Part shown: positions 55,397-61,225 of the stretch, one piece after another
Layout: each line of letters starts with the position of its first letter
Numbering within the stretch: position 1 is the first letter of the stretch
Assembly (NCBI RefSeq): GCF_016746095.1
Contig: NZ_JAERTY010000009.1
Coordinates: 124,001-188,000, forward strand
Reading direction: 5' to 3'
DNA: 64,000 bases
Source of the DNA: Sphingobacterium faecale
GTDB taxonomy: Bacteria; Bacteroidota; Bacteroidia; Sphingobacteriales; Sphingobacteriaceae
The notes under the pieces: generated by a model
What the model was told of the DNA's origin: nothing
The model's database searches: none
What the model saw: the letters and a program-made list of their open reading frames with translations, nothing else
Program-made: the position numbers and the translations under genes

Positions 55397-55669
55397 TTAA
55401 AAAAGATCAGTATGTTTGCCCGTCCTGATTAATGTTACTAATTTAATGCTATCATTCTGTTCCCAAATCAGAAGCCAATCAGGCTGAATATGACATTCCC
55501 AAAAGCCTTTATAATTCCCAATCAACTTATGAGCTTTATACCTCGGCCCTAGCTCACCGCTTTCAACTAATGTGGTAACAACTTCATTTAGCAAAATGAA
55601 ATTTAGTCCACGCTTTTTTGCCAATTTTATATCCTTTTTAAATTGACCGGTCTGTTCAAGCGAAAACAT
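55397..55669 (-). CDS. YafQ-family mRNA interferase toxin
   Basis: This 90-residue RelE/ParE-fold toxin has FKKDIKLAKKRGLN, then AHKLIGNYKGFWECHIQPDWLL and the end IRTGKHTDLF. The positions matching the active-site histidines and Asp of E. coli YafQ (HxL, CHIxPDW, TGxHxxLF) are all present, so it should be an active ribosome-dependent endonuclease. The antitoxin gene precedes it by 2 bp. The pair lies between two copies of a structured repeat. Confidence 0.92.
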   Translation of the reverse strand: MFSLEQTGQFKKDIKLAKKRGLNFILLNEVVTTLVESGELGPRYKAHKLIGNYKGFWECHIQPDWLLIWEQNDSIKLVTLIRTGKHTDLF

Positions 55670-55671
55670 CT

Positions 55672-55863
55672 TTAATCAAGTTGTTTACGAAAATCAGCAA
55701 GCGATATCTTATTTGTTTTACCAGATTTCGCCTCTTTAATAGCATTTTCAGTTGTACTATTATAACGCTTCTCTTCTATTTCAATAAAAGGAAGTGTCTT
55801 AAGATACTCGTATAGGGCCTTTGCTTGTTTACTTCGTTCATCAAGTTTTAAAGTAATTTCCAT
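55672..55863 (-). CDS. Antitoxin of the YafQ-type pair
   Basis: This 63-residue protein begins MEITLKLDERSKQAKALYEY (beta-strand then helix), continues with FIEIEEKRYNSTTENAIKEA and ends in a polar tail. No ribbon-helix-helix is clear, but size, position just upstream of the toxin and the AKALYEYLKTLPFI helix fit the antitoxins often found with YafQ-like toxins in this phylum. It should bind and neutralise the toxin and repress the pair. Confidence 0.85.
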   Translation of the reverse strand: MEITLKLDERSKQAKALYEYLKTLPFIEIEEKRYNSTTENAIKEAKSGKTNKISLADFRKQLD

Positions 55864-55968: not shown

Positions 55969-56044
55969 GAATTGGATTTTGACGGCGGAAGCCTAGGAAC
56001 TTTCCCTAGGGAAAGGTTCCAGCTTCCAAGTTAAAATCCAATTC
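55969..56044. repeat. Structured hairpin repeat, copy B (most complete)
   Basis: Outer arms GAATTGGATTTTGAC and GTTAAAATCCAATTC pair over 15 bp (one G-T). Inside, GGAAGC/GCTTCC and GGAAC-TTTCCC-TA-GGGAAA-G-GTTCC form nested stems. The core matches copies A and D, while the outer arms are different in each but still pair. The right arm reaches the stop codon of the helix-turn-helix gene at 56043. Confidence 0.85.
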
Positions 56045-56453
56045 AAACCTTTCCTTTTGGTACCGAATACCACTGCCGCATCTCCCTGATCTCACTGGCG
56101 ATATAGCGCACACCGCCCCCCTTCTTGCCGATCTCTACCTTGGTAAGCAAGCCTTCACGACGCCGTACGCCCAGCGTAACCCGCGATATGCCCAGCATGT
56201 CGCAAGCCTCAACGGTATCCACCAGCCAGTCACCTTCGGCCAGCACCAGGTCACGGATGTGGATGACACGGCGTTTATCGACATGAATCTCACAGTCGGA
56301 CGTGGGCACATGCATGGTCTGTGCGCCGTAGCGAGACAGGCAGGCAGGACAACTGGCTTTGGGCGAAAACCGTGTTTTCAACCACATAAACAATTCTAAC
56401 AATAAAAAATACAAACGGTCATTTTGATTACTACTATTTACTAACGAATCCAT
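56043..56453 (-). CDS. Helix-turn-helix domain protein
   Basis: This 136-residue protein has a hydrophobic N-terminal stretch (LYFLLLELFMWLK), a CPAC pair (about residue 36), and a C-terminal HTH of the MerR/excisionase type: DTVEACDMLGISRVTLGVRRREG, then GGGVRYIASEIREM. Excisionase-like proteins of this kind are frequent in this phylum beside mobile DNA. It lies next to the most complete structured repeat and the toxin-antitoxin pair. The CPAC segment could bind a metal. The target is unknown. Confidence 0.72.
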   Translation of the reverse strand: MDSLVNSSNQNDRLYFLLLELFMWLKTRFSPKASCPACLSRYGAQTMHVPTSDCEIHVDKRRVIHIRDLVLAEGDWLVDTVEACDMLGISRVTLGVRRREGLLTKVEIGKKGGGVRYIASEIREMRQWYSVPKGKV

Positions 56454-56519: not shown

Positions 56520-57245
56520 TCATTGAAAGCGTTTATAAAGCGCAAGGAAACTTTCTCTGTAAATATCCGTGATACCTATCGATCCGCGGTACCCACGCAT
56601 TTGTATTTTATATGATTTGGTATTGAAGGTTATTAGATTGTCGATATGAATAATGAAACTACGATGTATGCGCACAAAGCGGTCCTTCGGCAGGTGATCA
56701 TACATTTTTTCCAAGGTTTTGCGTTGTGTATATTTGCTGCCGTCAATAAGGTAAATATAAATATCATTACGAGCAGATTCGATGACCGAGATCTCATCCG
56801 GGGCGAGTATCAGCTCCACATGAGTCTCTTTATCTTTGATTACCAACTTGGGGCGTAACACTTTGCTGCTTTGAGGCTCCTCTTTAAATATTACGCTCAG
56901 CGCTTTTATCAAGTGCGGTATTAGGAGCGGCTTTGTCAAGCAGTAATCCACATCATCCAGATAGCCCGGTACTACATAGCTTGCATATCCTGTCACCATT
57001 AAGAGTTTAGGCCTAGGAGTTAGCAACGGAAGCATTTCCAGCCCATTGAGGCCCGGCATTTCCACATCAAAAACCAACAGGTCCACCTGATTTTTTTTGA
57101 TATAGTCAATGGCGCGGATGCTGTTGGTCTCCGTCTTAATTTCATAACCCAGAATTAATTTAAACAGATCAGCATGTGTATCCAATATAGCAGGCTCATC
57201 ATCCAGCAGTAGTACTTTCTTCGTTGTCTCTAGCATGTTGTTCAC
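56520..57245 (-). CDS. LytTR-family response regulator
   Basis: A protein of 241 residues. The N-terminal receiver domain has the acidic pocket LLLDDEPA, the phospho-acceptor Asp in LLVFDVEMPG (about residue 60), MVTGYAS and the conserved Lys in CLTKP, so it looks functional. The C-terminal LytTR DNA-binding domain (about 140-240) has YIYLIDGSKYTQRKTLEKM and FVRIHRSFIIHIDNL. The partner sensor gene overlaps by 47 bp upstream. LytTR proteins bind direct repeats about 21 bp apart, and such repeats are found at 59761. Confidence 0.93.
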   Translation of the reverse strand: MNNMLETTKKVLLLDDEPAILDTHADLFKLILGYEIKTETNSIRAIDYIKKNQVDLLVFDVEMPGLNGLEMLPLLTPRPKLLMVTGYASYVVPGYLDDVDYCLTKPLLIPHLIKALSVIFKEEPQSSKVLRPKLVIKDKETHVELILAPDEISVIESARNDIYIYLIDGSKYTQRKTLEKMYDHLPKDRFVRIHRSFIIHIDNLITFNTKSYKIQMRGYRGSIGITDIYRESFLALYKRFQ

Positions 57246-58287
57246 TATTTAGATTAACGTTTAGTTCCAATTGATATGTTGTTTCTAGGTCTTCTACCTG
57301 TAGGTCATACTTGCCAGCAAGGTGTGTATCTAACTGTTCGTGCACAAACTGCATCCCCCTACCAGTAGGTTCGGTAATAGCTATAGCCCCAGTCTTTTTG
57401 ATATTCCAGCTACGAAACGTATATCCATCATCGTGCAATTCCAGTTCAATGCGCACCGCAGCACTGCAGGTAAGATCGGCATAGGTACCTATATTCTCGA
57501 TGATGGTAAGCAACACCAGCGCCGGTATAATCTGTCCCGAATACCGCCCAGCTACCTGAAGTCGCACGGCATCCTGCCTTCGATATCTTAGGCAGTAGAA
57601 ATCAAGCATCTTCTCTACATAGGCCATTTCGGTTTTGATGGGTTTGAAAGGCAACGATAGTTGTGATACCTCTTCAATATAAACTTTGACATCTAGGTAC
57701 ATTTCCAGCAAGGTAGCGGTATGCACGGATTGTCCGATACGGGTTACATAAAGAATAAAGCTTAATGTATTGCGCTCCAAGTGCATCGACATTCTGCTAC
57801 GTTTTACCTGCTCATTCAATAGGCCAAAGCCCCGTCGGTACGATTGCCAACTATGCAGTGTACGTACGAGCGAACCAAACAACCAGATTGGAGTTACGTA
57901 AAACAAGAGTAACTTTCCATATTCTGTACCTATGGTTGTCAGAAATTCTTCAAAATCAAACGCAGCTCCTCTTTTGAAAGCGTAAAGACCAAATTTTGGC
58001 ATAATGTGATATATCCAAAAGTAGACGACAAGCAAAGCAATCGGAAATAGAATCCCGATAAAGGCAAGTATCCACAGTGCTCTTCTTTTTATTATAAACC
58101 AATCTATTCCATAGGATATCGTATAACCAAAAGCTACATATAGTAAAACGATAAAAATACTTAGGAAAAAAGAAATCCCTGAGTAAAAATCAAAGTTGAC
58201 CCAGGATAAAAGTATCCAGATTAATGTCCAAAAAAGTATAGTAAAATGATGCTTATACTTTTCTATGTAGAAAGGTTTCGTATTCAT
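57199..58287 (-). CDS. LytS-like sensor protein lacking the phospho-acceptor histidine
   Basis: This 362-residue protein has four to five N-terminal membrane helices (from FTILFWTLIWILLSWV to about residue 145) and a cytoplasmic His_kinase/HATPase region. In place of the usual PHFLFN box it reads MHLERNTLSFILY, so the histidine is replaced. The N-box is kept as LLTIIENIGTYA but loses the usual K/H, and the G-box is reduced to GRGMQFV. It is probably a pseudokinase that senses or scaffolds, not one that phosphorylates. It overlaps the LytTR regulator gene. Confidence 0.85.
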   Translation of the reverse strand: MNTKPFYIEKYKHHFTILFWTLIWILLSWVNFDFYSGISFFLSIFIVLLYVAFGYTISYGIDWFIIKRRALWILAFIGILFPIALLVVYFWIYHIMPKFGLYAFKRGAAFDFEEFLTTIGTEYGKLLLFYVTPIWLFGSLVRTLHSWQSYRRGFGLLNEQVKRSRMSMHLERNTLSFILYVTRIGQSVHTATLLEMYLDVKVYIEEVSQLSLPFKPIKTEMAYVEKMLDFYCLRYRRQDAVRLQVAGRYSGQIIPALVLLTIIENIGTYADLTCSAAVRIELELHDDGYTFRSWNIKKTGAIAITEPTGRGMQFVHEQLDTHLAGKYDLQVEDLETTYQLELNVNLNSEQHARDNEESTTAG

Positions 58288-58366
58288 AGTGTAGCCGGTC
58301 TCAGTTAGGATTAATAGCTAATATACAATTATTTTTTAACCATTATCCCTTGGTTCGGAGGCTACA

Positions 58367-59362
58367 CTACCCCAAATGAAGATGAAGCCTCTTTGCAAAG
58401 CAGATGTATTGATACGCTTTTTTACTTAACAATCGGCTATCCAAGTAACGACTATGTATCAGGTAATGGCTGTTACCGATCTGAACTGGCCATAGGTTTT
58501 GGATGTGGCGTAAAATCTGCCACTTAGTACCAGCAGAGGTATACTGCTCTACTCTGCACCATGCGTAAACCCACCCTTCCCACATCATACCGTATTTTGC
58601 CAATGAATGTGTTAAGAGTCCATATAGCTTATTGTATACACGCTTACTGTACTGTTGGTTGTCTTCTGCGGAATCGGCCATTAATGCTTCTGCAATAGTC
58701 CAATTGAAATGCATATTTACTTTATGTACCAGCATGGGGTATATGGGTACCTGCCAACGGTAGGATAATACCGCCATAGCCGTACGCTGTATTATTTGTC
58801 CTTTGAAAAGAGGAATGCACAGATTCTGCCTGCTCTCCTTTTGAGGGGAGTGGCTGCCGGTGTTGCCATCTGCATATACCAATACATGATATCCATCCCG
58901 CAAAGCCTTACGGACCTGTAGCAGGCTACTTTCTTGTTCGGCATCCAACAGGATGAAATCACCGGTTTTAGCATCGAGCTGTTGTAGCCCCCTATGCTGT
59001 GTGTGCATCATGCCCATTTGCTCGGCACGTACCTTGGACGAGACCAAAAGAGCAATGTTAAAGCCCAATTCACACAATAGCCGGGGTAAAACCCGATAAG
59101 CTCCTGTATGAAAGGTAAGAATAATACCAGGCCTTTGTTTCATCGCTTCCAATTGTGTGTGCTGCCCTGGGCTGAGCTGAATATAGGACGAAATATCATC
59201 CAACAATTGATCGGCACTCACAGTAGATTTCCACTGCATAAAATCGGTATAAAAATTACGATAAGTTGAAACAGGAATATGAGGACAAAAGTATTGAAGA
59301 TTAGCACAAAAAAGGGCAAAGATGGTATCGCCCAGCGCGGGGGTAGTAGGTAGCTCGTTCAT
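58367..59362 (-). CDS. LpxL-like acyltransferase-fold protein with altered catalytic box
   Basis: A protein of 331 residues with the LpxL/HtrB (lysophospholipid acyltransferase) pattern: LTFHTGAYRVLPRLLCELGFN, GYHVLVYADGNTG and IIQRTAMAVLSYRWQVPIYPM. In LpxL the first motif is HFGNWE (HX4E/D). Here it is HTGAYR, with Arg in the acidic position, so lipid A acyltransfer in the classic way is doubtful. There is no clear membrane helix. It lies between a 48-residue peptide gene (63-bp gap) and the sensor gene, in one operon. A role in acylating or transporting the peptide, or in signalling, is speculation. Confidence 0.75.
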   Translation of the reverse strand: MNELPTTPALGDTIFALFCANLQYFCPHIPVSTYRNFYTDFMQWKSTVSADQLLDDISSYIQLSPGQHTQLEAMKQRPGIILTFHTGAYRVLPRLLCELGFNIALLVSSKVRAEQMGMMHTQHRGLQQLDAKTGDFILLDAEQESSLLQVRKALRDGYHVLVYADGNTGSHSPQKESRQNLCIPLFKGQIIQRTAMAVLSYRWQVPIYPMLVHKVNMHFNWTIAEALMADSAEDNQQYSKRVYNKLYGLLTHSLAKYGMMWEGWVYAWCRVEQYTSAGTKWQILRHIQNLWPVQIGNSHYLIHSRYLDSRLLSKKAYQYICFAKRLHLHLG

Positions 59363-59425
59363 AAAAAAGGGTTTAAGAAAGGAGGCTATAAGAAGCCTCC
59401 CCTGTTTAATCGTGTTGGATATATT

Positions 59426-59572
59426 CTAATTTTGTGGATCTAAAGGTTTGAAATCACATTTTGATTGTGCCTCTACTACATTATTCAATAGTTGACCCAT
59501 CGTATCCGAGTCCATATATTCGCCACCGAAAGATCCAAATGACGATGCAAAATCTATAATTAGCTGTAACAT
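59426..59572 (-). CDS. Short peptide gene (48 aa), possible precursor or signal
   Basis: An open frame from the ATG at 59572 to TAG at 59426 gives a peptide starting MLQLIIDFASSFGSFGGEYM and ending VEAQSKCDFKPLDPQN, with a single Cys at residue 39. It is preceded by the A-rich stretch usual for translation starts in this phylum and is the first gene of the operon that runs through the LpxL-like, sensor and LytTR genes. A Gly-Gly at 16-17 could be a leader cleavage site. There is no match to a known family that I recall. Confidence 0.6.
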   Translation of the reverse strand: MLQLIIDFASSFGSFGGEYMDSDTMGQLLNNVVEAQSKCDFKPLDPQN

Positions 59573-59760: not shown

Positions 59761-59813
59761 TCGTCCCTAAAAAATTCCATTTCGTCCCTAAAACAGGGGT
59801 TTATGTCCCAAAA
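59761..59813. promoter_or_regulatory. Three 21-bp-phased direct repeats in the divergent region
   Basis: GTCCC-led units (TCGTCCCTAAAA, TTCGTCCCTAAAA, TATGTCCCAAAA) have GTCCC at 59763, 59784 and 59805, exactly 21 bp apart. LytTR regulators bind such direct repeats. The site is 60 bp before the Crp-like gene and about 190 bp before the peptide gene. The rest of the 296-bp spacer shows no gene. Confidence 0.7.
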
Positions 59814-59868: not shown

Positions 59869-60474
59869 ATGAACAGAAAAAGCCCAAAATGCCGCAGAGC
59901 GGTAACCTTTGCCATGACGCAATGGAACAAGTATGTTGCTACAGAAAAATTTCACGAAGAGTGGATCTGGAGACATGCTGAACTATTAGAACTAAAAAAA
60001 GGACAAAAAATAACGGATGTGCTGCACGACTTTGTACCAGCTGCATTCTACCTTATCGAGGGACTGATGGCCCGTAGTACGGTACAGGAAAATAACAAGC
60101 GAAAGCTCATATCGATCTGCCTGCCCGGAAATATGCTACTCAACACCAGCAACATGGAGAGCAGAACCCCCTTAAATAGCGATATCGTAGCACTGAAGCG
60201 AAGTATGTTACTGTATACGCCCCATAGCAAGATGGTACCCTATAAAGACACTGATCCCGTATTCGTAAACTACCTCAATGTACTGCGCGAAAAGAAGCTC
60301 AAGCAGATGCGTATCCATACCGAGTTACTCCAACAAGAATCGCCCTCCAAGAGGTTTGTCAAATTCACGCAGCTGCTTCCCGAAATCTACCGAGCCACCA
60401 TCCAAAAAGAACAAGCCGAATACCTGGAAATATCCAGAGCCACAGTCGCTTTCGCAAAAAAACACCTGTTATGA
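59869..60474 (+). CDS. Crp/Fnr-family transcriptional regulator
   Basis: This 201-residue protein has a cNMP-binding-like beta roll (LELKKGQKITDVLHDFVPAA, FYLIEGLMARST, KLISICLPGNMLL) and a C-terminal helix-turn-helix (SPSKRFVKFTQLLPEIYRA, then KEQAEYLEISRATVAFAKKH). The nucleotide-contact residues of E. coli Crp are not conserved, as is usual in Bacteroidota members, so the ligand is unknown. It diverges from the peptide operon over the phased repeats, hence may be controlled by the LytTR protein or control that operon. Confidence 0.85.
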   Translation: MNRKSPKCRRAVTFAMTQWNKYVATEKFHEEWIWRHAELLELKKGQKITDVLHDFVPAAFYLIEGLMARSTVQENNKRKLISICLPGNMLLNTSNMESRTPLNSDIVALKRSMLLYTPHSKMVPYKDTDPVFVNYLNVLREKKLKQMRIHTELLQQESPSKRFVKFTQLLPEIYRATIQKEQAEYLEISRATVAFAKKHLL

Positions 60475-60733: not shown

Positions 60734-61225
60734 ATGCGCATAGGAATATATATACAATACTTTTTCAGCTATATCTTGGGCTTGCTATTTATTTACACTG
60801 CTGTACGCAAGATGATAGATTATAATGCCCATGTGGCACATATCGCCGACGTCAAATTTTTATCAGCCTCTATAGCTTACCATGCCGCATACCTCGTTAT
60901 CCTAGCCGAAATGGCCATCGCTCTGCTGCTATTAGTACCGATAACCCGTGTACAGGTGTGGGGATGGAAACTGATCCTACCCCTGATGCTGGTATACACT
61001 TTCTATGTGAATCATGTCTTGAACCTGCCTCTTTTCATTCCCTGCTCCTGCAAGGGCGTGCATGACCGGCTGGCCTGGACAGATCATTACATATTGAATG
61101 CCGGACTATCTATACTCGCACTGAGTATGATAACCCTGCACTACAGAATACGGAAACTCATGAAAAAAAATAATGAAGAAAAAGAACTCAACGAGCTCAT
61201 TGATGTTGTCATAGCGTCTCGATGA
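60734..61225 (+). CDS. MauE/DoxX-like redox-associated membrane protein
   Basis: This 163-residue protein has four membrane helices (for example YILGLLFIYTAVRKM, LVILAEMAIALLLLVPI, LPLMLVYTFYVNHVL and AGLSILALSMITLHY), with a CxC pair in the loop FIPCSCKGV. MauE-type proteins help to form disulfides in exported proteins, perhaps with TlpA- or DsbC-like partners. It is followed 41 bp later by a small Cys-containing exported protein, and a TlpA-like gene converges at 61652. The charged C-terminal tail ends ELIDVVIASR. Confidence 0.86.
   Translation: MRIGIYIQYFFSYILGLLFIYTAVRKMIDYNAHVAHIADVKFLSASIAYHAAYLVILAEMAIALLLLVPITRVQVWGWKLILPLMLVYTFYVNHVLNLPLFIPCSCKGVHDRLAWTDHYILNAGLSILALSMITLHYRIRKLMKKNNEEKELNELIDVVIASR

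Follow-up and report, generated by a model that had tools for sequence, protein, structure and literature searches.

The 64,000-nucleotide stretch of Sphingobacterium faecale DNA analysed here (the window) carries a four-gene operon that looks like an undescribed Gram-negative peptide-signalling system, a cassette of a short peptide, an enzyme of the LPLAT fold, a LytS-type sensor kinase, and a LytTR regulator. We propose with moderate confidence that the enzyme, which we call ACYL, acylates the cysteine-containing core of the ribosomal peptide, and that the LytS/LytTR pair of the same operon then senses what is made and controls its own expression. The broader proposal is more tentative and falls just short of an even bet: that such loci form a new pheromone class of Gram-negative Bacteroidota, in which an enzyme of LpxL/PatA fold, carrying a fused RRE-like domain, acylates ribosomal Cys-hexapeptides that are each read by their own LytS/LytTR pair, with several orthogonal channels per genome. 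The features of the operon, in window coordinates, are as follows.

56520-57245, minus strand: response regulator with receiver and LytTR domains; GTG start, overlapping the sensor gene
57066-57068, minus strand: Asp60 of the receiver, present in 39/39 aligned sequences
57199-58287, minus strand: LytS-type sensor kinase, 362 residues, about four transmembrane (TM) segments; relatives match PF06580 (His_kinase)
57781-57783, minus strand: His169 of SMHLERN, the sensor H-box, from an alignment of 39 sensors
58367-59362, minus strand: ACYL, putative peptide acyltransferase of LpxL/PatA fold, 331 residues, from an AF2 model and fold matches
58370-58501, minus strand: C-terminal beta-beta-beta-alpha extension of ACYL, from the secondary structure of the AF2 model
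58868-58870, minus strand: Asp165, candidate catalytic partner, invariant (62/62), at the alignment position of the LpxL block-3 Asp
59108-59110, minus strand: His85 of HTGAYR, invariant (61/61)
59426-59572, minus strand: precursor peptide gene, 48 residues, MLQLIIDFASSFGSFGGEYMDSDTMGQLLNNVVEAQSKCDFKPLDPQN; position and C-terminal K-C motif common to about 55 loci
59441-59458, minus strand: predicted core CDFKPL, Cys39 to Leu44, aligned with CDFEPL, CGFTPL, and CDFVVP; boundaries inferred
59761-59813, minus strand: putative LytTR-type operator, two copies of TTTTAGGGACG at 21-bp spacing (59793-59784 and 59772-59763) and a degenerate third copy (59813-59805)
59869-60474, plus strand: divergent Crp-like (cNMP_binding) regulator, linked in 19/41 loci

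The operon is a real, four-gene unit. Its minus-strand order in the window (peptide, ACYL, LytS-like sensor, receiver-LytTR regulator) had been put forward in an earlier, sequence-only reading of this DNA, and all four open reading frames were located as described; among their products, only the regulator gave a strong Pfam match. The same reading had proposed a search for conserved neighbourhoods of the peptide and the LpxL-like gene, and we found the four-gene order kept at nearly all of 41 loci and at the majority of a second locus set. From the divergent gene to the regulator, conservation was limited to the genes for peptide, ACYL, kinase, and regulator. Comparison of gene neighbours at the 41 loci revealed neither a dedicated protease or exporter conserved in the operon nor a conserved immunity gene. 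An ACYL homologue was found in 36 of 201 sampled genomes of the family, with up to five copies in some, and the cores differ between the copies of these multi-copy genomes. Two paralogous ACYL-kinase-regulator operons (L035 and L036) lie elsewhere in the genome of the window. A scan of named organisms queried with the window ACYL protein alone returned no match; with a tighter alignment, the scan gave 11 named loci, in Parapedobacter, Olivibacter, and a Chitinophagaceae MAG.

The precursor peptide was recognised by an ending first seen among short open reading frames upstream of ACYL at the 41 listed loci. At 34 of these, the LpxL-like gene is closely preceded by a short frame with a tail of the [K/R]-C-x4-[L/F/I] type. 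A motif of the [KRPD]C type close to the stop codon occurred at 34/41 loci compared to 2.6 expected from Markov shuffles, and in control searches of the same loci a motif frame appeared at five on the reverse strand and at one to three in downstream windows. Because this pattern had been defined on the same 41 loci, we tried a stricter pattern on 18 further, independent loci; it was found in 17 of them (0.97 expected) and in none on the reverse strand. The Cys-tailed reading frame upstream of ACYL is more than chance. The search turned up no motif peptide at L040, L048, and L065 of the first set or at L113 of the second.

All 48 non-redundant peptides contain the cysteine, which directly follows a lysine or arginine in 42. 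The count from this cysteine to the end is six residues in 30 peptides and seven in 13, and 38 peptides end in Leu, Phe, or Ile. By inspection, many of the leaders have a P-[I/L]-x-x-x-[E/Q]-[L/I]-like stretch in common. An encoded precursor with leader and core adjoining a modifying enzyme is the arrangement of a RiPP, and it is seen here. The peptide of the window departs from this pattern: its core resembles CDFEPL, but four extra residues (DPQN) follow the typical six-residue core, placing it outside the 34 strict matches. Coding selection on the peptide is well supported by codon comparison, another check that had been suggested beforehand, since the L037 and L038 peptides differ by 15 synonymous and no nonsynonymous codon changes, every one at a third position. 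Peptides with similar cores tend to go with similar ACYL proteins (Mantel r 0.43, 0/2000 permutations), a correlation that shared ancestry alone would also give.

ACYL has the fold of the LPLAT superfamily (PF03279). The AF2 model of the window protein (pLDDT 88.7) matched LpxM (5kn7, Z 21.1) and PatA (Z 20.7), with the next group of structures far lower, and Lip_A_acyltrans (PF03279) was detected at E<=0.1 in 22 of 38 family members (best 1.7e-7). LPLAT-fold enzymes use acyl-CoA/ACP donors, and LPLAT relatives acylate lipids. The genome of the window also encodes three canonical HX4E LpxL-type genes, which group together in our tree and are distinct from ACYL; the canonical LpxL proteins form one clade. 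Weak class-level matches L080, L081, and L083 proved to be LpxL-like genes of the canonical HX4E kind, set in different gene surroundings.

The sequence-only reading was right that HTGAYR stands in place of HX4E/D. Of 61 full ACYL members, a single one (L069, HLGNHE) has an acid at the fifth position after the histidine, so HxGxYR is a family feature, and the position is mostly Arg. Trp261 is invariant in the family and a WE.W motif nearly so. PatA has H126-E200 as its catalytic pair and can do without D131 of the HX4D motif, as D131A keeps 37% activity; HtrB/MsbB have been suggested to rely on the same block-3 acid (PMC4792965). When ACYL was aligned by HMM with one of the canonical LpxL-like proteins encoded in this genome, its Asp165 fell on the Asp of the ADQ motif. 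ACYL is probably an active enzyme because its invariant Asp165 takes the alignment position of the block-3 acid, which is catalytic in PatA, and by this analogy HxGxYR is compatible with catalysis. We rejected a dead enzyme arising from loss of the HX4D/E acid in view of the PatA data, the invariance of Asp165, and the LpxL block-3 alignment. The substrate of ACYL is probably the peptide, to which it would attach a fatty acid.

The C-terminal part of the enzyme suggests how a peptide might be recognised. Seven long-tailed members have in common a C-terminal domain (beta3-alpha3 in the model, pLDDT 92.5) that models as a RiPP recognition element (RRE) by fold. Its best PDB matches were lasso B1 (Z 6.2), TbiB1 (5.9), and PqqD (5.0), and the top matches were mostly RREs of RiPP pathways, with ThcOx, McbB, SuiB, CteB, and PbtF also in the list. 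A Z of only about 6 is modest for a 70-residue RRE-like domain, but the list of matches is consistent. No Foldseek match to the long-tail domain reached E <0.001, and when the tail sequence was compared with Pfam, NCBIfam, and PDB, nothing meaningful came up and there was no HMM hit. The window protein keeps the beta3-alpha1 half, so its extension is apparently a shortened RRE-like domain; the tail is absent from six members (L042, L046, L059, L067, L098, and L122).

Two distant ACYL homologues were also seen in RiPP clusters. One, in another class of the phylum (L127:659-4996), encodes an rSAM/SPASM maturase, a 47-residue Cys precursor (2309-2452), an ACYL homologue, and an RRE-like/M50 metalloprotease. 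Another, in a different family (L106:3282-7670), combines an rSAM/SPASM protein, a 57-residue Cys peptide, an ACYL homologue, and an M50 protease. The M50 metalloproteases of both clusters are daptide-type. Both homologues have long branches; L106 falls inside the ACYL group, and the membership of L127 is uncertain because its long branch adjoins the LpxL clade. At L104:5246-6740, two identical 50-residue Cys precursors stand in tandem before ACYL, beside a membrane-anchored LytTR protein.

The sensor and regulator retain the residues of normal phosphotransfer. In the alignment of 39 sensors, His169 and Asn173 of SMHLERN fall on the His and Asn of NPHFLFN, and the H-box His (39/39), N-box Asn (38/39), and G-box Gly (39/39) are conserved; like the kinase His, the receiver Asp is present in 39/39. 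The window regulator keeps Asp60, as had been read from the sequence, together with the acidic pocket and Lys105. The claim that the PHFLFN histidine is replaced did not hold up: ERNTLSFILY had apparently been taken for the H-box, which lies a few residues earlier at His169, and with this alignment the stated ground for a pseudokinase falls away. The related suggestion of signalling without normal phosphotransfer is unsupported because the sensor keeps its His and the receiver its Asp and Lys. The flanks of the window H-box are divergent, and given this divergence the window kinase could have reduced activity. Hydropathy gives about four TM segments, and the input part of the sensor is nearly all transmembrane, with no large periplasmic domain.

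Upstream 10-base direct repeats were found with a period of 20 at 8/55 loci and 21 at 13/55, compared to about 1.2 expected per period; other periods occurred at zero to four loci, and a coding control reached four at period 21. These periods match the layout of known LytTR operators, which consist of 9-bp repeats with 11-13 bp spacers (PMC6193735). A genome-wide search for a second copy of the window operator at up to three mismatches found none, which suggests local autoregulation of the operon, possibly together with the divergent Crp-like gene, which may share the putative operator.

Neighbours at the 41 loci include genes that, from reading of their sequences, we take to be SusC (28) and SusD (26), as well as Crp-like (19) and MauE (16) genes. 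A MauE-like gene lies at 60734-61225 of the window, and a 91% identical copy outside it (G000:C52:218949) suggests a duplicated cassette. Just 3' of the regulator is a gene for an HTH_17-like small protein (56043-56453), and similar small HTH genes lie downstream at many loci. A toxin gene of the YafQ/RelE type, preceded by a small partner (55397-55863, minus strand), is also near the operon, and DUF6266 and DUF5675 genes recur 3' of several operons (L057:10573-11217, L054:10188-10601).

These observations can be assembled into a mechanism in which acylation and its site, cleavage, export, sensing, and autoregulation are all inferred steps. The product of the short gene would be a precursor made up of a leader and a core that contains Cys, and ACYL, using the RRE-like, leader-binding tail present in many relatives, would transfer an acyl group to that core. 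The acyl site would most likely be the invariant Cys, as an S-acyl group, or as an N-acyl group once the peptide has been cleaved behind the preceding Lys/Arg. The acylated product, released or kept in the membrane, would be sensed by the co-encoded 4-TM LytS-type kinase, which would phosphorylate the LytTR regulator; this would then bind the 21-bp-phased upstream repeats and activate the operon and possibly the divergent genes.

The main gap of this peptide-signalling model is the missing exporter and protease. On a rival view, the acylated peptide is an antimicrobial lipopeptide, a bacteriocin-like RiPP, and the sensor-regulator pair does no more than autoregulate its production or immunity. 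Bacteriocins are under LytTR control in streptococci (PMC6193735), and the RiPP clusters holding ACYL homologues may make antimicrobials. We nevertheless judge this unlikely: the core is a small, uniform hexapeptide-like unit, neither an exporter nor an immunity gene is conserved, and genomes with as many as five copies, whose cores differ, suit signalling better than killing. The lack of an export gene in the operon is also what would be expected if the peptide stays inside and its acylated form is a membrane-anchored internal signal of acyl-donor or membrane state rather than of cell density, as is the almost entirely transmembrane input of the sensor, with no large periplasmic domain. We consider this very unlikely, as core diversification tracking the enzyme fits a secreted, specificity-tuned pheromone, although shared ancestry could give the same pattern.

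Other alternatives concern the chemistry of ACYL. The Cys-x4-hydrophobic ending is like the rings of staphylococcal AIPs, and a Lys/Arg precedes the Cys in 42/48 peptides, so the product might be a Cys-to-C-terminus thiolactone, or be acylated on the Lys at -1, instead of on the Cys. Such chemistry seems quite unlikely given the acyl-CoA/ACP donors of LPLAT-fold enzymes, the lack of an activating enzyme, the lack of a C-terminal follower in most peptides, and the invariance of the Cys but not the Lys. ACYL might also be what its LpxL/PatA fold and lipid-acylating LPLAT relatives bring to mind, a lipid A/phospholipid acyltransferase for sensor-controlled envelope remodelling, with the short frame a translated leader or attenuator. 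We see only a slim chance of this, as the peptide is conserved at the amino-acid level amid synonymous drift, the enzyme has an RRE-like tail, and ACYL is distinct from the single tree group of the genome's three canonical HX4E LpxL-type genes. Acylation of the Cys core followed by two-component sensing remains our best reading.

Among the closest parallels are the Gram-positive agr/Fsr-type autoinducing-peptide systems, in which, as here, one operon encodes a short precursor whose hydrophobic C-terminus has a Cys nearby, a modifying enzyme, a membrane kinase, and a LytTR regulator (here PF06580 kinases with LytTR regulators). The modifier here is instead of LpxL/PatA fold, the kinases are of the PF06580 LytS type, and the host is a Gram-negative member of the Bacteroidota. 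No AgrB-like membrane peptidase/cyclase was seen among the conserved genes between the divergent gene and the regulator. An AgrD-like recognition tail after the Cys core was likewise not found, as 43/48 peptides end at the sixth or seventh residue counting the Cys as first; the window peptide, with ten, is an exception. We do not class the system as agr because AgrB was not among the genes seen, the AgrD follower is lacking from most peptides, and the modifying enzyme is of an unrelated kind; agr-like logic built from unrelated parts appears to be the best reading.

Lipidated RiPPs also have ribosomal precursors and the acylation that we propose here, as with the nostolysamides, which are fatty-acyl Lys lanthipeptides (PMC13060382), and a ChrH-type peptide (PMC12636315). 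Their modifying enzymes are reported to be different ones, a lanthipeptide synthetase (PMC13060382) and an MNIO with the lipoprotein pathway (PMC12636315). ACYL is like LpxL/LpxM/PatA (PF03279) in fold, invariant His, and block-3 acid, and is set apart by HxGxYR (60/61 without the His+5 acid), Trp261, WE.W, the RRE-like tail of many members, and its genetic linkage with a peptide gene. A LytTR regulator paired with a membrane protein is also found in LytTR Regulatory Systems (LRS; HdrRM/BrsRM), as are upstream 9-bp repeats with a spacer of about 12 bp, but in the present operon the regulator is paired with a kinase of the LytS type and includes a receiver domain. A survey of Bacteroidales places putative RiPP precursors near HK/RR two-component systems in Bacteroidota but mentions acyltransferase zero times (PMC10352776). 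Literature searches, with incomplete coverage of subscription papers, found no published account of such a system. The sequence-only view that peptide, acyltransferase-like modifier, and signalling genes make up one undescribed system thus fares well, given the conserved order, the selected peptide, the RRE-like domain, and the homologues in RiPP clusters.

Most known cases of two-component systems that sense peptide pheromones come from Gram-positive bacteria, and Gram-negative bacteria have been described with acyl-homoserine lactones and other small molecules (PMC8895600). If our reading is true, an LpxL-fold enzyme would join the set of ribosomal-peptide maturases, and peptide communication in Bacteroidota could be tested directly by way of the Sphingobacteriaceae cassette, of which a genome may carry as many as five copies.
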